In this document: positions 3,352 through 18,325 of the stretch, one piece after another
Position numbering within the stretch: position 1 is the stretch's first letter
Layout of the letters: the number at the start of each line of letters is the position of its first letter
Notes under the pieces: model-generated
What the model was told of the DNA's origin: nothing
Database searches by the model: none
Seen by the model: the letters and a program-made list of their open reading frames with translations, nothing else
Program-made: the position numbers and the translations under genes
Assembly (NCBI GenBank): GCA_030694905.1
Contig: JAUYTY010000089.1
Location: 1 to 33,283 of the forward strand
DNA from: Eubacteriales bacterium
GTDB lineage: Bacteria; Bacillota; Clostridia; Tissierellales; Dethiosulfatibacteraceae
Length of the DNA: 33,283 bases
Direction: 5' to 3'

Positions 3352-4638
3352 ATGTCACAAACAAAAAAACGTACTTTTAACATTATTATTATCGTTGTAA
3401 TTATACTTATTATATCTTATTTTTTGTTTTTTAACACGGAAAATATTTCTGTTGAGGTTGATGGTGCTCCAGTTATCAAAGGAGATATTATTAAAACCCT
3501 CAATCTGACAGGTTCAATCAGTACTTCAGATAATGAGATAATCAATCTTCCCACTGGCATGATGGTTAAAAAAGTATTTGCTGAAGAAAACAAATTTGTA
3601 GAAGCTGGACAGGTTTTAGCGGAATTGAATTCCGACGAAGTAAACATTAATATAGAAAAAACCAATCTTCTGATTGCTCAACTACAAGATGATCTCTCAA
3701 CAATATCGGGTGATTCAGGTGCAGTAGAAAAAGCATTGCTAAAAAACGTCCTTCTCATAGCCAAAGAAGATTACGACAAGGCATCAAAGGATTTTGAAAT
3801 CTCTGAAAATGAAATTGGAAAAAGTAAAGCTTTATTATCAGGAGGTGCAATAAGCCAAGCGGAATATGACAAGGTGCTATCTTTATCAGCTGATGTTAAC
3901 AGTTATTACTATATTGCCAAGCTCAATTATGATACTGCCAATAAGCGCTATTTGGATTATGATAGAAATCAAGCTATACGGATTAATTCAATCGAAACGC
4001 AAATCGAATCAGCAAGACTTGATCTGGCTAGTTTAAAACTGAAATTTGAGGATAATTTTGTAACCTCCACTATATCCGGTGTTTTGACCACCTTCCCTAT
4101 TAAGGAAGGACGAAGCATTCTGCCAAATAGCAGGATAGAGATTTATGACATTAGCAGTTTTCAATTCAAATCTATGGTTCCTCAAGAAGACGCGGTTCAA
4201 ATTGGACTTGGTCAAAAGTCACTCGTCAGTATTTCCGGAATACCGACATCATATGAAGGCACAGTAACTTCAATGGGAACTGTTGCAGTCATCGATTCTC
4301 AAAGCGGTAGCCGGACGCCTAAAGTTGCGGTCACTATAACGTTGGAACTGTCAGATGACCAGGTAATCTCAGGGTTTGACGCCGATGCGATTGTTGAGGT
4401 GGTTCGATTAACTGATGAACTAATAATCAAAAGAGAGTCGCTCAAAAGAGATCTGGACGGCAAAGAATTTGTTTTTATTATAAAAGACAACAAAGCCATC
4501 AAAACGTTCATAGAATCAGGTGCCTCAGATAATACAAATGTTTCTGTGCGATCAGGGTTAAATGAAAATGATTTGGTTATTGTCAACCCATCGTTGGAAG
4601 TTAAAGACGGAACATCATTAAAAGTCACATTCAGGTGA
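3352..4638 (+). CDS. HlyD/MacA-type membrane fusion (periplasmic adaptor) protein of an ABC exporter
   Basis: The 428-residue protein starts with a short basic stretch and one membrane anchor (about residues 9-26). A biotinyl-lipoyl-like half motif follows (GMMVKKVFAEENKFVEAGQVLAEL, about 66-90). Next come a long helical hairpin rich in K, E and D (about 95-225) and the returning lipoyl half plus beta-barrel domain (TSTISGVLTTFPIKEG onward). This is the order found in MacA/HlyD adaptors, which couple an ABC permease to substrate export. The ribosome binding site is AAGGGGGA. It is the first gene of a four-gene operon with the cobalamin-domain protein, permease and ATPase, and its stop overlaps the next gene's ribosome binding site. 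In a Gram-positive-type cell it would act outside the membrane, as YknX-type adaptors do. The cargo is unknown. Confidence 0.85.
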   Translation: MSQTKKRTFNIIIIVVIILIISYFLFFNTENISVEVDGAPVIKGDIIKTLNLTGSISTSDNEIINLPTGMMVKKVFAEENKFVEAGQVLAELNSDEVNINIEKTNLLIAQLQDDLSTISGDSGAVEKALLKNVLLIAKEDYDKASKDFEISENEIGKSKALLSGGAISQAEYDKVLSLSADVNSYYYIAKLNYDTANKRYLDYDRNQAIRINSIETQIESARLDLASLKLKFEDNFVTSTISGVLTTFPIKEGRSILPNSRIEIYDISSFQFKSMVPQEDAVQIGLGQKSLVSISGIPTSYEGTVTSMGTVAVIDSQSGSRTPKVAVTITLELSDDQVISGFDADAIVEVVRLTDELIIKRESLKRDLDGKEFVFIIKDNKAIKTFIESGASDNTNVSVRSGLNENDLVIVNPSLEVKDGTSLKVTFR

Positions 4639-4643
4639 ATGAT

Positions 4644-5309
4644 ATGAAAAACCACAAAGAAGAATTTATGCTGCTATTTGAAGAATTCAATAAGGATGAA
4701 TGTGTACGATTTGTATTGAATGGCTTAAACAACAACCGTTTTACCATTCCAGAGTTGTATGAGGAAATCTTAGGTCCTGCTCTTTATGCTGTTGATGAAT
4801 GCAAAAATGATGATAATGACTGCATTTGGCGAGAGCATGTAAAAACTGCTATTGTCAGGACAATTATTGAATCGATATATCCTTACGTCATTGAAATAAA
4901 AAAAAGTGTCAAGCCATTGAATCATAAAGTTGTTTTGGTATGTCCTGAGAAGGAATACCACGAAATAGGTTTGAGAATGATGTCGGATTTTTTTGATATG
5001 AACGGCTATGAATCTATTTTCATCGGCAGCAACACACCGAGGGAACAGGTCTGCGTTGCAATATCACAAAACAATCCAAAATATGTCGCCATTGGCATAA
5101 CGGATTTTTATCTGATGTTTGAGGCCAAGAAACTTATTTCAAATATTAGGGAAAGGCATGAAAACAGAATCACAATTATTCTAGGCGGCACCGCTTTTCT
5201 CAATAATTCAACAGCTATTTTCGATATAGGTGGAGATCTTTATTTGACATCTCATAATGACATCAGAAATCTGGCCAAGGAGGACTCGTTCAATGAGACT
5301 GGCATTTAG
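4644..5309 (+). CDS. stand-alone cobalamin (B12)-binding domain protein, possible sensor
   Basis: The 221-residue protein has two parts. An N-terminal helical region (about 8-90) resembles the B12-binding cap domain and contains a Glu64-His65 pair (IWREHVKTA). A Rossmann-like B12-binding domain (about 94-205) contains E104-x-H106-x-x-G109, close to the classical D-x-H-x-x-G loop in which His is the lower cobalt ligand, and a later GGTAF segment. In CarH-type photoreceptors the EH pair supplies the upper His ligand in the dark; the Trp ten residues before that pair in CarH is not conserved here. There is no DNA-binding domain and no partner methyltransferase nearby. AGGTGA overlapping the previous stop supports this ATG. 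The gene sits between the adaptor and permease genes and overlaps the permease by 17 bp, so it is firmly part of the efflux operon. A sensory or regulatory role is inference. Confidence 0.7.
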   Translation: MKNHKEEFMLLFEEFNKDECVRFVLNGLNNNRFTIPELYEEILGPALYAVDECKNDDNDCIWREHVKTAIVRTIIESIYPYVIEIKKSVKPLNHKVVLVCPEKEYHEIGLRMMSDFFDMNGYESIFIGSNTPREQVCVAISQNNPKYVAIGITDFYLMFEAKKLISNIRERHENRITIILGGTAFLNNSTAIFDIGGDLYLTSHNDIRNLAKEDSFNETGI

Positions 5310-6453
5310 TATAGCACTTCGGTTCTTGAAATCTGGCAAGGGTCAGACTATTCTAATTGTTCTTGGAATCTCCGTTGGTGTCGCTGTCCAATTATTTATC
5401 GGATCCCTTATTCAGGGCCTTCAGATTAATCTAGTCAATACAACCATTGGCAATTCACCACAGATTACAATCACGCCAACCAATACTGAAAAAACAATTA
5501 AGGACTGGGAACGGGCTCTTTATGAAGCGAAAATTAGCAGCAATGATATCATCAATCTATCAGTCGCAGCTGATGGACCCGCGAGCTTTGACTATGAGAG
5601 TGATATTGATCCTGTTTTGATTAGAGGATTTGAATTGAAAAACGGGAATAAGATCTATGGTTTCGAGGAAGGCTTATATTCTGGACAACTCCCTTCCAGA
5701 AAGGATGAAGCTATAATAGGCAGAGAACTTGCAGAAAAAACAGAGACTAATGTCAACGATAAAATTTTAATAGTATCTCCTTTTGGTGGAGCCATACGTC
5801 TGACGGTGACAGGGTTATATGATCTTAAAGTTTCATCTATCAACGAAACATGGGTCATTACAAATTTAGAAACCGCACAAGACATTCTAGGCATAGGCAA
5901 TCAGGTCACTGGTGTTGAAATGCAGGTAAATGAGGTTTTTGAAGCAGATAAGATCGCTAAATCATTGGCTTATACTTTATCTCTTCCAGAAGTAAAAGTT
6001 GATAACTGGAAAGACCAAAATCAACAGCTTCTAAGTGGTTTGAACGGCCAAAGTGTTTCCAGCATTATGATCCAGGTCTTTGTCTTAGTTGCTGTCTTAT
6101 TAGGTATTTCAAGTGTGCTGGCCATCTCAGTAGTTCAACGTTCTAAGCAGCTTGGCATTCTCAAGGCAATGGGCATCAAAGATAGAGATGCAAGTCTTAT
6201 CTTTGTCTTTCAAGGCCTGATGCTTGGGATTCTTGGCGCTATCTTAGGCATAACATTGGGTTTCGGTTTGTTGATTTCGTTTACCACCTTTGCTGTCAAT
6301 CCGGATGGTACGCCAGTCGTGCCTATATATATCAACAATGGTTTTGTTGCCTTATCCGGCGTTTTTGCTATCATTTCCGCCATGACAGCGTCACTGATCC
6401 CTGCGAGATTATCGTCAAATCTGAATCCAATTGAGGTGATTAAGAATGGCTGA
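5293..6453 (+). CDS. ABC transporter permease, FtsX/MacB-LolC type
   Basis: The 386-residue protein shows the standard layout for this family. One N-terminal membrane helix (about 17-40) is followed by a large extracytoplasmic domain (about 41-250). Three C-terminal helices (starting near 258, 310 and 355) form the FtsX-like core, including VVQRSKQLGILKAMGIKD between the first two of these. I placed the start at MRLAFSIALRFL because AAGGAGG lies 9 bp upstream; an upstream in-frame ATG would add 12 residues encoded inside the preceding gene. The reading frame overlaps both neighbours (17 bp and 8 bp), indicating tight coupling with the cobalamin-domain gene and the ATPase. With the adaptor and ATPase it should form a mechanotransmission-type exporter. 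The cargo (drug, peptide, lipid or corrinoid-related compound) cannot be told from the sequence. Confidence 0.88.
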   Translation: MRLAFSIALRFLKSGKGQTILIVLGISVGVAVQLFIGSLIQGLQINLVNTTIGNSPQITITPTNTEKTIKDWERALYEAKISSNDIINLSVAADGPASFDYESDIDPVLIRGFELKNGNKIYGFEEGLYSGQLPSRKDEAIIGRELAEKTETNVNDKILIVSPFGGAIRLTVTGLYDLKVSSINETWVITNLETAQDILGIGNQVTGVEMQVNEVFEADKIAKSLAYTLSLPEVKVDNWKDQNQQLLSGLNGQSVSSIMIQVFVLVAVLLGISSVLAISVVQRSKQLGILKAMGIKDRDASLIFVFQGLMLGILGAILGITLGFGLLISFTTFAVNPDGTPVVPIYINNGFVALSGVFAIISAMTASLIPARLSSNLNPIEVIKNG

Positions 6454-7132
6454 TATTATCAGGTTAAAAGACATCAATAAAATATATGGCGATAAAATAA
6501 AAACTCAAGTGCTGTTTGATATCAATCTGAATTTTGATGCGGGAAGCTTCAACTCCATAATTGGTGAGTCAGGTAGTGGAAAGAGCACAATGCTTAACAT
6601 CATCGGAACCCTAGATAAGCCAACAAGCGGTGAAGTTTATATTTCAGGTGATCGGACAGATACCTTGGACAAACAGGCTCTCGCTAGCCTCAGAAACCAA
6701 ACCATGGGTTTCATTTTTCAGTTTCATTATCTATTGCCTGAATTCACCGCCAAAGAAAACATATTGATGCCCTATAAAATACATGATTACCACGTTCCCA
6801 AGGATGTGGATGAATGGGCGGACGAGTTGTTACAGTTAGTAGGTCTGACAAAAGTCTCTAAAAACCTGGCAAACGATATGTCTGGTGGCCAACAACAAAG
6901 AACTGCTATAGCGAGGGCATTGATCAACAGGCCCAAAATCATTCTTGCAGATGAACCTACGGGTAATTTGGATTCGGACTCAACCGAAAATGTATATAAG
7001 ATTTTGAGAGATATCAACGAAAGGTACAAAACCACCTTTGTAATAATCACTCATGATCAGAGAATAGCAGAAAAAACCGATCGGATCATTGAAGTGAAAG
7101 ACGGTAGAATACATCTGGATTTCAAAAGATGA
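6446..7132 (+). CDS. ABC transporter ATP-binding protein, MacB/LolD type
   Basis: This 228-residue ATPase energises the exporter encoded just upstream. It has a Walker A motif at 40-47 (GESGSGKS), Q-loop Gln92, signature MSGGQ at 145-149, a Walker B ending in ADEPTG (168-173), and switch His203. The length and the run of motifs match the LolD/MacB subfamily that pairs with FtsX-type permeases. The start codon overlaps the permease stop by 8 bp and follows GAGGTGA. It is the last gene of the operon and is followed by a hairpin terminator. Confidence 0.93.
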   Translation: MADIIRLKDINKIYGDKIKTQVLFDINLNFDAGSFNSIIGESGSGKSTMLNIIGTLDKPTSGEVYISGDRTDTLDKQALASLRNQTMGFIFQFHYLLPEFTAKENILMPYKIHDYHVPKDVDEWADELLQLVGLTKVSKNLANDMSGGQQQRTAIARALINRPKIILADEPTGNLDSDSTENVYKILRDINERYKTTFVIITHDQRIAEKTDRIIEVKDGRIHLDFKR

Positions 7133-7189: not shown

Positions 7190-9070
7190 TTATTGAATGA
7201 GCTTCCAAATATCATTGGCATACTCGACCGGGTCACCAATGGACAAGCCTTCTATCAGAAGCGCCTGATTATACAGAATATTTGTCAGCAATGCCAGTTT
7301 GTCCTTGTCATTATCAAATGCAGCCTTGAGTGATTTATACAGTGGATGATTGATGTTTATTTCCAAAACCTTATCTGCTTTGATGTCCTGGCTATTAGGC
7401 ATGGACTTAAGGATTTTTTCCATCTCTATGGAAACCTCACCCTCATTGCTTAAGCATACCGGATGGTTCTTAAGTCTTTTTGAAACCCTTACTTCTTTTA
7501 TCTTGTCTCCCAATACATCCTTCATGTAATTGAAGATTTCTTTATTCTCTACATTCTCATCTTCCTGCTCTTCTTTTTCAGCTTCGCTCTCAATGCCAAG
7601 ATCTTTGTCCGAAACGGATTTAAATGGCTTTTCGCGATAACTGGAGAGCAGTTTAATGGCAAACTCATCTATGTCATCTGTAAAGTAAAGGATTTCATAA
7701 CCCTTGTCACTGATCATTTCTGATTGTGGCAGTTTTTCAATCCTCTGATATGACTCTCCGGCTCCGTAGTAAATGTACTTCTGGTCTTCAGGCATTCTAT
7801 CTATGTATTCATCAAGAGTCACCATTGATTTAAGCGTTGAGGAGTAAAACATCAGCAAATCCTGCAGCAATTCCTTTTCCATGCCATAATTGTCATATAT
7901 GCCAAATTTCAGTTGCCTTCCAAAGGATTTATAGAATTTTTCATAATTCTCTCTCTCATGCTTCAACATGTTAAGCAATTCGCTTTTAATCTTGGCTTTT
8001 AAGTTCTTTGCGATAAACTTCAGCTGCCTGTCCTGTTGAAGTATTTCCCTTGAAATGTTTAATGACAAGTCCTCTGAGTCCACCATTCCCTTAACAAAAC
8101 TGAAATAATCAGGTAGAAGGTCCTTGCACTTATTCATGATCAATATGCCATTAGCGTATAATTCCAGTCCTTTCTCATACTCTTTTGTGTAGTAGTCAAA
8201 TGGAATATTTTCGGGTATGTATAGTATGGCATTGTATCTGATGACACCGTCCACACTGACGTGCAGATGCTTTAAAGGTTTGTCAAATCCATAATGCTTC
8301 TCTGAATAAAAATTGTCGTAATCCTCATCATTCAGTTCGCTCTTGTTTTTTCTCCAGATCGGCACCATGCTATTGATGGTCTTTTCGACAAAAACATCTT
8401 CGTATTCATCTTCAGTTCCATCCTTTAATTTTGTTTCTTTAACATCCATCTTTATTGGATATCTTACAAAATCCGAATACTTCTTTATTATACTTCTGAG
8501 TCTGTACTGCTCAAGATAATCATCGAACTGGTCATCCTCTGTATTCTCCTTAATCTTAAGGATGATTTCTGTCCCCACTGCATCTTTCTTGCATTCTTCT
8601 ATTGTATAGCCCGAGGTTCCGGTAGATTCCCATTTATAAGCTGTATCACTGCTTAAGGCCTTGGATATGACAGTAACCTTGTCAGCAACCATGAAGGCAG
8701 AATAGAAACCAACACCAAACTGGCCGATAATCTCGTAGCCGTCTGTTATATTGTTTTCTTTCTTGAAGTTCAATGATCCGCTATTGGCTATAACGCCTAA
8801 ATTGCTCTCTAACTCTTCTCTTGTCATTCCAATGCCGGTATCATATACTCTTAAAGTTCTAGTATTTTTATCCGCTTCAATTTTTATATAATAATTGTTC
8901 TTGTCAAAAACCATTGACTCGTCAGTCAATGCCTTGTAGTAAATCTTGTCTATCGCATCACTTGAATTTGAAATCAATTCCCTCAGGAAAATCTCTCTGT
9001 GCGTATAAATTGAGTTGATCATCAACTCCAGTAGTCTTTTTGACTCCGCTTTAAATTGTTTTTTTGCCAT
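7190..9070 (-). CDS. htpG: molecular chaperone HtpG (bacterial Hsp90)
   Basis: HtpG is a dimeric ATP-dependent chaperone acting late in folding and in stress tolerance. The 626-residue protein begins [17 protein letters not shown]. It shows the N-terminal GHKL ATPase motifs: [12 protein letters not shown] (31-42), DTGIGM, and the [11 protein letters not shown] lid region. A middle domain follows ([10 protein letters not shown]), then an acidic linker and a dimerisation domain. AGGGAGA before this ATG fixes the start; an upstream in-frame start would put 15 codons inside the 5' leader and operator. It lies downstream of hsp20 on the same strand but has its own promoter and CIRCE operator, so HrcA repression is expected. 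Confidence 0.97.
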
Positions 9071-9092
9071 ATCAATGTCTCCCTTCTTTGAC

Positions 9093-9143
9093 GGTATAAA
9101 ATTATTAGCACTCAAGCGTTTAGAGTGCTAATAATTTTATACC
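9093..9143. promoter_or_regulatory. CIRCE operator of htpG inside an extended inverted repeat
   Basis: The core at 9105-9131 is a perfect CIRCE: TTAGCACTC, nine bases, GAGTGCTAA, the binding site of the HrcA repressor. The inverted repeat continues without mismatch to 21 bp per arm. Part of each extra arm lies in the -10 hexamer of the htpG promoter. Because it also follows the hsp20 stop codon by 7 bp, the same hairpin could influence read-through or RNA stability; that second role is inference. Confidence 0.93.
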
Positions 9144-9164
9144 ACATTGCTTACTCAATGTCAA
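9136..9164 (-). promoter_or_regulatory. htpG promoter
   Basis: TTGACA and TATAAA are spaced 17 bp apart, near-perfect for the housekeeping sigma factor. The -35 is read from the last codons of hsp20 and its neighbourhood, and the CIRCE core begins just past the -10, where bound HrcA would block initiation. Confidence 0.85.
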
Positions 9165-9594
9165 TCTTGATTGTCCTATCTTCTTTAGCTTTCTTTGGAA
9201 CCTTTATGTTCAAAATGCCATTATCCAGCTTGGCTTTGATACCATCTGATTTGGCATCCTGAAGATACAAAACCCGCTCCATGGAGGAAGTTCTTATTTC
9301 CCTGTGAATATAATTTTTTTGCTCTTCCTCATTTTTCTCGCTTCTTTGAACCGCTATGGACAGCCTGCCGTCATCTAGCTTAACATCGATTTCCTCTTTC
9401 ATAACTCCAGGCAACTCTGCATCAACAGAATACTCATTTTCACCTTCTCGTACATCTAACTTGAAAGTGCCATATGAGGCATTCTTTCCAGTAAGCCAGG
9501 AGTCATTAAAAAAGTCATCAAGAACATCATAGAAGTTCTCAAAACCTCTTGGTCTTAAACTGTTTCTTTTGTTGAAAGGTACTAATCCAGCCAT
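9151..9594 (-). CDS. small heat-shock protein, Hsp20/alpha-crystallin family
   Basis: The 147-residue protein is an ATP-independent holdase that binds unfolding proteins. Its alpha-crystallin domain spans about residues 40-135. It contains VDAELPGVMKEEIDVKLDDG, the YIHREI strand and the closing GILNIKVPKK with the usual L/I-x-V/I type pattern. The start ATG follows AAAGGAG by 8 bp; a TTG three codons upstream is less well placed. A consensus promoter and a perfect CIRCE lie directly upstream, and htpG follows with a second CIRCE, so both chaperones probably belong to the HrcA regulon. Confidence 0.95.
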   Translation of the reverse strand: MAGLVPFNKRNSLRPRGFENFYDVLDDFFNDSWLTGKNASYGTFKLDVREGENEYSVDAELPGVMKEEIDVKLDDGRLSIAVQRSEKNEEEQKNYIHREIRTSSMERVLYLQDAKSDGIKAKLDNGILNIKVPKKAKEDRTIKIDIE

Positions 9595-9619
9595 GTTCAA
9601 CAACTCCTTTCTGATTTTA

Positions 9620-12668: not shown

Positions 12669-14120
12669 TTACTTACCGATTTTTGCTATATTCTTTGCCA
12701 ACTCTTTTTTATGCTCCAGATTTCCCTGTCGCCAGATCATGATTCTCTGGGCCTGTGGAGATCCCGCGCCATGCATTGATTCAGTCCTATAGCCTACAGC
12801 AGCTGTGCCTAAAGTCAAGTTCTCGATCAGCCTCAATATTTTTGCGCGATCGATTGTCGGAACATTTGCATTGCCCTTAAAAAACTTTTCGCATACCGGT
12901 CCCAATTCAGGGTGCATGAAATCTTTTTCGGAAGGCATGGTTACCATAAGCCCTCCGGCAATATCCTCTGCCAGTCTCGTAATTTCATAAGGGTATCTGG
13001 TTACATTTTGTTTGCAAACATTAGCCAACAAAAGGTCAATCTGATAATTGCCGGCTTCAGTAGGATAGCCTTCTGCTGAACAGGCTATGCCGCAGCAATA
13101 CAAGGTTTCGTTCAGGTGCATCATTTCAATCAGTTTGTCCTTTATATGCGCCACCTTAGGTACGCCATTGTATTCCGATGCCAGGGCAGCAGCTCCAATC
13201 AACACATCTCCGACACCTACTTTACAGCCACCATAGCTTTGTCTATGATAGCCGGCAAATCTTTCTACCAACACGCCAGCATATTCAGTTTCCCCATTCA
13301 GGAAAATCCTATTATTCGGTACGAACACGTCATCAAATACGACCAGTGCCTCTTGTCCACCAAACTCACTGTTGCCAACATCTATGGTTCCACCCTCAAG
13401 TTTTCTGGTGTCACAGGATTGTCTGCCATATATCATATAAATTCCCTTAGACCCTGTAGGAACTGCAAATGAGACCGCATAATCCCTGTCCTCCGGACCC
13501 ATGGCAATCGTCGGCATAATCAGGTGTTCGTGAGAATTAATTGAACCTGTCTGATGGGCCTTTGCGCCTCTTACAACTATTCCATCTTCTCGTCGCTCGA
13601 CTACCCTAACATACAGGTCGGGGTCATCCTGTTGGCTTGGCGACAGGCTTCTGTCCCCTTTTGGATCAGTCATGGCACCATCTACAGTCCAATCATTTTC
13701 CTGCACCAGTTTCATGTATTCCAAAAAGTTATCATGATAATGAGTACCATGTTCTTTATCAATATCATAAGTTGTGCTGTATACAGAATTGAAAGCGTCC
13801 ATTCCTACACATCTTTGGAAACAGGCAGCAGTTTTTTGGCCAAGCAATCTTTGCATTTTAACTTTCTTGATAAGATCCTCTGTGCTTTGATGAATATGAC
13901 AGAACCTGTTGACCTTTTCTCCGGTCAAATTGGAAGTTGCTGTCATGAGATCCTCATAAAGGGGATCGTGTGCCAGTTCATAGGTCATTGCAACCGAATT
14001 GATTGACGGGCGGATAATGGGATGATCCACTGGATTCTCAACCAGTTCTCCAAACATGTATACTTTTATGTCGAGTCTTCGTAGGCTCTCAATATACTCT
14101 TGACGGTTCATTAGTGCCAT
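12669..14120 (-). CDS. abfD: 4-hydroxybutyryl-CoA dehydratase / vinylacetyl-CoA delta-isomerase
   Basis: The enzyme dehydrates 4-hydroxybutyryl-CoA to crotonyl-CoA by a ketyl radical route using FAD and a 4Fe-4S cluster, and it isomerises vinylacetyl-CoA. It serves 4-aminobutyrate and succinate fermentation to butyrate. The 483-residue protein keeps all expected cluster ligands: C100 and C104 in ACFQRC, H292 and C299 in YHRQSYGGC. These match Cys99, Cys103, His292 and Cys299 of the Clostridium aminobutyricum enzyme, and they separate it from the related 4-hydroxyphenylacetate 3-hydroxylases. GGAGG lies upstream of the ATG. An extended -10 promoter lies upstream and two Fe-S-type genes follow. 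4-hydroxybutyrate dehydrogenase is not in the window; an AbfT-like CoA-transferase lies 9 kb away in another operon. Confidence 0.95.
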   Translation of the reverse strand: MALMNRQEYIESLRRLDIKVYMFGELVENPVDHPIIRPSINSVAMTYELAHDPLYEDLMTATSNLTGEKVNRFCHIHQSTEDLIKKVKMQRLLGQKTAACFQRCVGMDAFNSVYSTTYDIDKEHGTHYHDNFLEYMKLVQENDWTVDGAMTDPKGDRSLSPSQQDDPDLYVRVVERREDGIVVRGAKAHQTGSINSHEHLIMPTIAMGPEDRDYAVSFAVPTGSKGIYMIYGRQSCDTRKLEGGTIDVGNSEFGGQEALVVFDDVFVPNNRIFLNGETEYAGVLVERFAGYHRQSYGGCKVGVGDVLIGAAALASEYNGVPKVAHIKDKLIEMMHLNETLYCCGIACSAEGYPTEAGNYQIDLLLANVCKQNVTRYPYEITRLAEDIAGGLMVTMPSEKDFMHPELGPVCEKFFKGNANVPTIDRAKILRLIENLTLGTAAVGYRTESMHGAGSPQAQRIMIWRQGNLEHKKELAKNIAKIGK

Positions 14121-17137: not shown

Positions 17138-18325
17138 ATGTTTAAGATAACTGATAATGTATCATGGGTTGGTAAAATAGACTGGGAATTAAGAAAATTT
17201 CATGGCGAAGAGTATACTGCCAACAGGGGTTCTTCATATAATTCCTATCTGATCAGGGACAAAAAGACTGTCCTTATTGACACGGTTTGGCTGCCATTTT
17301 CCAAGGAGTTTGTTGCTGACCTAAAAAAAGAAATAGACCTGAAGACTATAGATTATATTATTGTCAATCATGGAGAAGTGGATCATAGCGGTGCTCTGTT
17401 GGATCTGATGATGGAAATTCCAGAAACACCGATATACTGCTCAAAGAAGGGTGTTGAATCATTAAAAGGTCATTACCACACTGATTGGAACCTTAACATC
17501 GTAAAGACAGGTGATACTCTGGATATAGGTGAGGGAACCCTGACCTTTTTAGAGGCGCCTATGCTCCATTGGCCAGATACAATGTTCACCTATTATTCCA
17601 AGGATGCCATACTTTTCAGCAATGACGGTTTTGGACAGCATTATGCCAGTGAAGCTATGTACAACGATAAGGTTGACCAGTCTGAGCTCTACCAAGAGGC
17701 TTTAAAATACTATGCTAATATACTCACGCCATTCAGCGCTCAAGTAACCAGAAAAATCAAGGAGATTTTAGGTTTCAATCTGCCTCTGAAAATGATATGT
17801 CCTTCTCATGGCGTCATTTGGAGAGATAATCCTGCCCAGATTGTAGAGCAGTATCTGAAGTGGGCAGATAATTATCAGGAAAATCAGGTAACCATCATTT
17901 ATGACACAATGTGGGACGGCACTGGAAAGATGGCTCAAGCGATTTCAAAAGGTATAAAATCGGTCAATGATGACGTAGTAATCAAACAATATAACGTCGG
18001 CCGCTCAGATATGAATGACGTGATATCTGAAATATTCAAATCAAAATTTGTACTGGCTGGATCTCCGACCATCAATAAAGGGATACTATCCGGATTGGCA
18101 GGTATCCTGGAGGTCATCAAAGGTCTTCAATTTAAAAACAAGAAAGCTGCAGCATTTGGAACCTATGGTTGGAGTGGGGAATCTCCTGCCCTGATCAAAG
18201 AAGAGCTAAAGAAATGTGGTTTTGATGTCTTGGACGATACAATCAAATCTCTTTGGAATCCCAATGAAGAAGTCATCGGATCTTGTATGGATCTTGGCAG
18301 AAAGGTTGGGGAATTGTGTAAGTAG
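17138..18325 (+). CDS. flavodiiron protein (A-type flavoprotein)
   Basis: Flavodiiron proteins reduce O2 to water, or NO to N2O, protecting anaerobes. The 395-residue protein has the two core domains. A metallo-beta-lactamase-like diiron domain has ligands H78-x-E80-x-D82-H83 (NHGEVDHSG), H144, D163 and H224; H168 is nearby. A C-terminal flavodoxin domain (about 252-395) binds FMN and starts VTIIYDTMWDGTGKMA. There is no fused rubredoxin, and no rubredoxin or flavoredoxin gene is adjacent, so electrons must come from a partner elsewhere. AAAGGAG precedes the ATG. It is a single-gene unit with its own promoter and terminator. O2 versus NO preference cannot be read from the sequence. Confidence 0.94.
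   Translation: MFKITDNVSWVGKIDWELRKFHGEEYTANRGSSYNSYLIRDKKTVLIDTVWLPFSKEFVADLKKEIDLKTIDYIIVNHGEVDHSGALLDLMMEIPETPIYCSKKGVESLKGHYHTDWNLNIVKTGDTLDIGEGTLTFLEAPMLHWPDTMFTYYSKDAILFSNDGFGQHYASEAMYNDKVDQSELYQEALKYYANILTPFSAQVTRKIKEILGFNLPLKMICPSHGVIWRDNPAQIVEQYLKWADNYQENQVTIIYDTMWDGTGKMAQAISKGIKSVNDDVVIKQYNVGRSDMNDVISEIFKSKFVLAGSPTINKGILSGLAGILEVIKGLQFKNKKAAAFGTYGWSGESPALIKEELKKCGFDVLDDTIKSLWNPNEEVIGSCMDLGRKVGELCK

Follow-up and report, generated by a model that had tools for sequence, protein, structure and literature searches.

A stand-alone cobalamin-binding protein encoded with a LolCDE/MacB-type ABC transporter in Bacillota: a candidate light-responsive sensory partner

What is the role of a cobalamin-binding protein whose gene is located in the middle of an ABC transporter operon? 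This question arises from a contig of a Clostridia genome (JAUYTY010000089.1, assembly GCA_030694905.1), of which a stretch of 33,283 nucleotides, called the window below, was analyzed as a whole. A gene on the forward strand (4644–5309, ATG at 4644) encodes a stand-alone protein of 221 amino acids with a helical cap and a Rossmann B12 fold, referred to here as the sensor. On the same strand it is followed by the gene of an FtsX-family permease with a MacB-like core domain (5293–6453, ATG at 5293) and that of a LolD/MacB-type ABC ATPase (6446–7132), and preceded by the gene of an HlyD/RND-type membrane-fusion (adaptor) protein (3352–4638), which occurs in a subset of the operons only. A previous reading of the letters only (the sequence-only reading) had claimed that the B12 gene overlaps both of its neighbors. 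The overlap with the permease gene (17 nt) is present, and a Shine-Dalgarno-like sequence of the permease, AAGGAGG as read from the sequence, lies within the B12 gene (5277–5283, forward strand). In contrast, the adaptor stop at 4638 leaves a gap of 5 nt to the ATG at 4644, and a 4-nt overlap requires an alternative GTG start at 4635. Permease and ATPase genes overlap by 8 nt.

Pfam analysis of the sensor identified a B12-binding domain at residues 95–185 (E 5.7e-11) and no helix-turn-helix or other DNA-binding domain; in the AlphaFold2 model the first helix of the cap begins at residue 3. The N-terminal MerR DNA-binding domain of the CarH/LitR type is absent. Glu64-His65 and E104-x-H106-x-x-G109 were found exactly where they had been reported, and both motifs are beyond chance, as they are invariant in 40 orthologs with identities down to about 27%. 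NCBIfam was rejected as a means of discriminating between the candidate identities, since every score was far below its cut-off (MtaC on top with 30.7 bits, CarH 19.2). Sigma-70-like promoter sites in the window (23 versus 14.1 ± 4.2 in shuffled sequences) and terminator-like sites (as many as in shuffled sequences) were set aside and not used as evidence.

Gene order was analyzed by searching genomes of the order (249), the class (391) and the phylum (398), sets which overlap in part, with a profile built from 16 orthologs. The sensor family was present in 25 genomes of the order, 12 further genomes of the class and 3 further genomes of the phylum (40 genomes), with Soehngenia, Sedimentibacter and other Tissierellia/Clostridia MAGs among the named relatives. 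In all 38 loci with a continuing contig the permease gene directly follows the sensor gene, and the ATPase gene is next where the contig extends. The two remaining loci stop at a contig edge, and in both genomes the permease is found near the edge of another contig. Sensor and permease genes usually overlap by 4–26 nt, with a typical spacing of 4 nt between sensor and permease and of 8 nt between permease and ATPase. Only one part of the tree has the adaptor; in the other operons the core begins with the sensor gene. Fusion proteins were not encountered. The recurrence of the sensor-permease order in the uncut loci, which the sequence-only reading had suggested looking for in relatives, rejects a random neighborhood of sensor and efflux genes (38 of 38) and supports the proposed functional link to the ABC genes. 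The pairing of sensor and transporter is real and conserved.

The permease model predicts four membrane helices; its extracytoplasmic domain comprises about 190 amino acids. In the ranking by fold LolC/LolE came first, followed by 5xu1 from S. pneumoniae, MacB and YtrF (LolE 9xro, Z 34.1; MacB 5lil, Z 21.4). The heme exporter HrtBA was considered as nearest permease and rejected, as it ranks under LolCDE with a Z of 20. PF02687, PF12704, a separate ATPase (PF00005) and the fold match assign the transporter to type VII (MacB/LolCDE/FtsEX). In this superfamily cytoplasmic ATP hydrolysis is reported to drive movement outside the membrane, termed mechanotransmission (PMC5985334). The structure of BceAB with the kinase BceS (8g4c) was also among the matches of the permease and provides a precedent for a permease of this kind whose state is set by a partner protein.

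The permease was detected in 45 genomes (29 of the order and 16 further ones of the class), 37 with and 8 without the sensor. In genome G057 an adaptor-permease-ATPase operon has a gap of 64 nt at the place of the sensor, and its permease is 77% identical. In the permease tree several rows without sensor are nested among rows with sensor, and G042 and G506 are located outside; with a midpoint root this is a reading and not a proof. Such a distribution is expected of a regulatory accessory with a single gain and repeated losses. Because 8 of 45 genomes have the transporter without the sensor, the sensor is an accessory regulator and not a transport subunit. It is the sensor that relies on the transporter and not vice versa. 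These sensor-less transporters, the nested losses and the remnant gene described next rule out an essential transport subunit, and the suggestion that the exporter handles corrinoids and needs the B12 protein for this purpose is not supported, as the transporter persists without it. The remnant (locus L159, 4885–5061, genome G048) is a decayed sensor gene of 58 amino acids before an intact permease and ATPase; cap and C-terminal half are lost. A search for an interface footprint, in the form of permease residues altered once the sensor had been lost, revealed no pattern and no co-variation with the presence of the sensor.

The AlphaFold2 model of the sensor was confident (pLDDT 90.8, pTM 0.88), and it matches cobalamin photoreceptor domains over the whole length (Z 22–24), which likewise speaks against chance. 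The closest structures are the photocobilins 8j2w (Z 24.0, 2.2 Å, 204 residues) and 8j2y (Z 22.9), followed by CtMerR (8jbt, Z 21.8; 8jbs, Z 21.6), AerR (7te2, Z 18.6) and TtCarH (Z about 18). The methyltransferase corrinoid protein 3ezx (Z 21.8) and MetH (1bmt, Z 21.3) score in a similar range, so that fold comparison was rejected as the sole discriminator between photoreceptor and methyltransferase domain (Z 24 versus 21.8). The sequences are more informative: CarH-like domains align with the window protein across most of its length, methyltransferase corrinoid proteins only in the Rossmann half (about residues 90–212). The Glu-His pair is present in 40 of 40 members of the sensor family and in all 12 other CarH-like domains of the surveyed genomes (XRE-fused, long and one stand-alone) and in none of four methyltransferase corrinoid proteins, which have neither the Trp nor Glu-His. 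Judged by sequence, the pair and a similarity that extends over cap as well as Rossmann fold place the protein on the side of the photoreceptors. The ABC-linked sensor family is monophyletic (support 99/100).

These comparisons bear on the idea that the protein carries methyl groups for a methyltransferase or serves the transporter as a corrinoid chaperone in corrinoid export or repair. Its MtaC-like Rossmann part and the score of 3ezx fit this idea, as do two kinds of loci: in L048 (4260–12862, genome G022) genes of a corrinoid protein, a URO-D-type methyltransferase, a DUF5714 protein and a questin-oxidase-like protein are located upstream of the operon and a CrtI-family desaturase gene downstream, and in L120/L182 a URO-D-like gene follows the operon after 5 nt. 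However, these are exceptions, as most sensor loci contain no methyltransferase-type genes, and the restriction of the match to the Rossmann half, the missing Glu-His pair of such proteins and the persistence of the transporter without the B12 protein make this explanation very improbable. At the window operon no methyltransferase partner is encoded among the nearest genes, as had been remarked before.

The pocket itself is strictly conserved. E64, H65, E104, H106, G109, D115, G128 and P132 are invariant in 40 of 40 sensor orthologs. The codons of W62-R63-E64-H65 (4827–4838, forward strand) specify a W-x-E-H motif, kept in 39 of 40, in place of the Wx9EH of CarH. Those of E104-x-H106-x-x-G109 (4953–4970, forward strand; 40/40) specify the B12 motif with H106 as presumed lower Co ligand, and those of G128-x-x-x-P132 (5025–5039, forward strand; 40/40) the GxxxP element, a signature taken from PMC11796333. 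The strict motif ExHx2Gx41SxV/Tx22-27GG is present in 24 of 40 orthologs, its E, H and G in all 40, its GG in 39 and its Ser in 37; the window copy has Gly instead (S151G). Two of the four light-signature elements of SignatureFinder (PMC11796333) occur in the family, EH and GxxxP, each in 40 of 40. GxxH is KEYH in the window, with Gly in 6 of 40 orthologs, and GxxW is absent: GxxW-x9-EH was found in 0 of 40 sensor orthologs versus 12 of 12 other CarH-like domains. The two His had both been regarded as known cobalt ligands. This is correct for the ExH His, the lower ligand in TtCarH, and not for the His of the Glu-His pair, which is no known ligand; the upper ligand of TtCarH after illumination is the His beside the Wx9EH Trp (PMC8156234, PMC11796333).

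CarH homologs are defined by both the Wx9EH and the B12 motif, and the Trp is required for AdoCbl capping and drives head-to-tail dimerization (PMC8156234). This Trp is missing in the window protein and present in 1 of 40 orthologs, as the sequence-only reading had noticed for the window, but a different Trp, W62 of I-W-R-E-H, is conserved in 39 of 40. By its missing Trp motif and DNA-binding domain the sensor family is not CarH; the description as an atypical, CarH-like stand-alone protein was appropriate. The loss of the dimerization Trp would fit the binding of another partner. CarA, a CarH paralog without Wx9EH, works B12-independently (PMC8156234), which weakens the case for B12 binding by the sensor family. 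A degenerate domain that has ceased to bind cobalamin and acts as a constitutive structural partner would be consistent with this precedent, with the lost Trp and with S151G in the window copy. However, the residues invariant across 40 sequences are those of the pocket, and we regard such a degeneration as the least probable of all explanations.

The neighborhood of the operons provides information about the possible signal. Photolyase, UV-endonuclease or RudS genes are located in the operons of three genera; in two further genera carotenoid/isoprenoid-type genes are nearby and in two the operon lies beside canonical CarH-type domains, which, counted most generously, amounts to 7 of 25 genera. 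Photolyase and RudS (2-thiouracil desulfurase and DUF1722) precede the sensor in one operon in three genomes of genus g7 (L044, L045, L047). Genomes G187 and G198 encode a UvsE-DUF1722 fusion immediately before the adaptor, and G243 encodes one immediately before the sensor; RudS directly follows the ATPase in G243 (4 nt) and G242 (about 11 nt). The CrtI-family desaturase gene of G022 lies 514 nt downstream (443.8 bits, cut-off 238.1), and G580 contains a squalene/phytoene-synthase-family gene three genes upstream, whose closest model is HpnD with a score below the cut-off. Divergent genes encode an XRE-HTH fused to a CarH-type domain in G119 and a CarH-type domain in G005; the latter gene precedes one truncated at the contig edge that begins, by visual comparison, like the GGDEF-EAL gene of L054. 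Within the 40 genomes 8 of 35 DUF1722 genes and 3 of 4 photolyase genes are located at the sensor operon. Based on seven nearby gene places of about 2,400, the binomial probability of the DUF1722 clustering is 1e-13, or 4e-5 if collapsed to genera; as the categories were picked post hoc, these values are a guide and not a test. According to PMC11417400, RudS genes occur in light-responsive operons together with photolyases, carotenoid genes and LitR. Taken together, the photolyase, UvsE, RudS, carotenoid-type and CarH-type neighbors in several genera favor light among the signals that the sequence-only reading had proposed.

The window operon itself has no light-damage gene beside it; its neighbors are a DUF697 gene, htpG (7190–9603), hsp20 and a DNA polymerase IV-like gene. 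The htpG gene also accompanies the operon elsewhere in the family of the window genome and a sensor-less permease-ATPase pair in the distant genome G430 (loci L040, L041 and L178 for both cases together). Elsewhere in the window an HpaB-type 4-hydroxyphenylacetate 3-hydroxylase-family protein (12669–14120) and a flavodiiron-like (ODP and flavodoxin) protein (17138–18325) are encoded; proteins of the latter type are typical of oxygen detoxification in anaerobes.

The surveyed loci contained additional relatives of these genes. XRE-HTH proteins with a CarH-like domain and the full GxxW-x9-EH are encoded in L112 (5867–6718), L051 (6806–7729), L053 (6606–7520), L055 (5319–6251) and L056 (5219–6115) and represent CarH-like regulators with another DNA-binding domain; the gene in L112 is divergent from a sensor-permease-ATPase operon, that in L053 from a CrtI-like desaturase gene (7632–9167). 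Fusions of the UV endonuclease UvsE (UvdE) with DUF1722 (L106, 7346–8632; L102, 5803–7056; L111, 3644–4975) are unlike RudS (TudS-DUF1722) and suggest a role of DUF1722 in UV DNA repair as well. Stand-alone CarH-type domain genes overlap the gene of a PAS-SpoIIE phosphatase in L049 (5937–7791), of a GGDEF protein in L052 (5803–7777) and of a GGDEF-EAL protein in L054 (4–2774). These pairs possibly form two-gene B12 photosensor systems and suggest a general habit in related genomes of encoding sensor and output in adjacent genes.

The same fold and motifs could also belong to a sensor of cobalamin status instead of light, which reports AdoCbl or its oxidized form and adjusts the transporter to oxygen or to the supply of the cofactor, with the photodamage neighbors as part of a general stress regulon. 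The CarH Trp that caps the adenosyl group is missing, those relatives that have names are MAGs from genera of anaerobes, Sedimentibacter and Soehngenia for example, and AdoCbl can be made by the host, since the source genome encodes a PduO-type adenosyltransferase. However, the enriched neighbors (photolyase, UvsE, RudS) are specific to UV or near-UV damage and not to general stress, an Rfam search of the window revealed neither a cobalamin riboswitch nor any other RNA, and no B12-uptake gene was noticed beside the sensor loci. A status sensor seems unlikely to us, although it is the most probable of the rivals.

Alternatively, the protein could act like AerR on a transcription factor that controls the operon and not on the transporter. 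AerR/SCHIC domains are stand-alone or joined to other sensors and act through CrtJ/PpsR, the fold of AerR is matched, and G119 contains a divergent XRE-CarH-type regulator. Yet no regulator or transcription factor is conserved among the nearest neighbors of the sensor operons, whereas the sensor gene is linked to the permease gene in every case, so that we consider a co-regulator of this type quite improbable. Two genomes of one genus (L100, L104) encode a histidine kinase and an OmpR-type response regulator directly upstream of the adaptor, possibly a second input to the operon.

Based on the precedent of BceAB-BceS, the protein contact of a photocobilin and the paired genes for sensor and output, we consider it most likely that the protein is a sensory partner of the transporter; this step taken separately is probable. 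Light as the signal is about evenly balanced, and a direct action of the sensor on the transporter has an even to slightly better chance. The complete proposal, in which the sensor is dedicated to a LolCDE/MacB-type (type VII) ABC transporter and serves it as a cobalamin-dependent, probably light-responsive sensory partner with the following mechanism, stands at an even chance. In the dark, AdoCbl would sit between Rossmann fold and helical cap; H106 would serve as the lower ligand, and the adenosyl group would face E64 and H65. On illumination, or when the upper ligand changes in some other way, the cap would move relative to the Rossmann fold. This shift could alter the contact of the sensor with the permease-ATPase pair from the next, overlapping genes, and the altered contact might turn the transporter on or off within a photodamage response. 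The proposal is based on the predicted fold, the motifs, the monophyly, the invariant gene order, the repeated loss of only the sensor and the light-damage genes nearby; from these we infer B12 binding, the light signal, the direct contact and the direction of the effect. Points against the proposal are the missing CarH Trp together with the CarA precedent, the Gly of the window copy in the B12 motif, the two absent light-signature elements, the restriction of light-damage repair genes to three genera and their absence at the window operon, the methyltransferase-type genes in two lineages, and the lack of permease co-variation and of fusion proteins. The most specific form of the proposal is a light-gated ABC transporter, for which an AdoCbl photoreceptor domain lacking both a DNA-binding domain and the CarH dimerization Trp would have been recruited in Bacillota; as a soluble subunit it would switch a LolCDE/MacB-type transporter through direct contact in the photodamage response. 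This form is less likely than not.

The protein may function in the manner of a cobalamin photoreceptor whose output is of a new kind. Known outputs of such photoreceptors are transcription and a diguanylate cyclase (the latter PMC10979010), and if the proposal is true, membrane transport or transmembrane mechanical signaling would join the processes controllable by B12 and light, in anaerobes, where light sensing is scarcely studied. The system may be an undescribed route by which light or B12 status controls a transporter. A family that keeps Glu-His and has replaced the capping Trp allows one to test directly which residues of the cap are indispensable, and the compact three-gene core could become an optogenetic transporter tool.

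Among the known systems, LolCDE, MacAB and YtrEF of type VII share with the transporter the permease with four helices, the large extracytoplasmic domain, the LolD-like ATPase and the optional adaptor; none of them is known to us to have a cobalamin-binding partner. In the open-access papers searched, no system was described that combines a B12 domain, an ABC transporter and light. Methyltransferase corrinoid proteins (MtaC, MtbC, MetH) share the Rossmann B12 fold but lack the Glu-His pair, and their methyltransferase partner is missing at most sensor loci. The CarH/LitR family consists of AdoCbl-dependent tetramers that are disassembled by light. Its members (TtCarH 5c8d, CtMerR 8jbs/8jbt) have the helical cap, the Rossmann B12 fold, Glu-His and ExHxxG in common with the sensor (Z 18–22), which differs by the absence of the MerR DNA-binding domain, by the Wx9EH Trp missing in 39 of 40 orthologs and by an output that is probably a transporter and not DNA. 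Photocobilins (SasPcob 8j2w, AbDPcob 8j2y), the top structural matches, contain a biliverdin-binding globin-like domain and GxxW, both absent from the sensor, and their stand-alone form regulates a diguanylate cyclase through protein contact (PMC10979010). AerR and the SCHIC domain of AppA (7te2, 4heh) have the same fold and likewise act via a partner protein; AerR retains the capping Trp and binds CrtJ, whereas the partner linked to the sensor is an ABC transporter.
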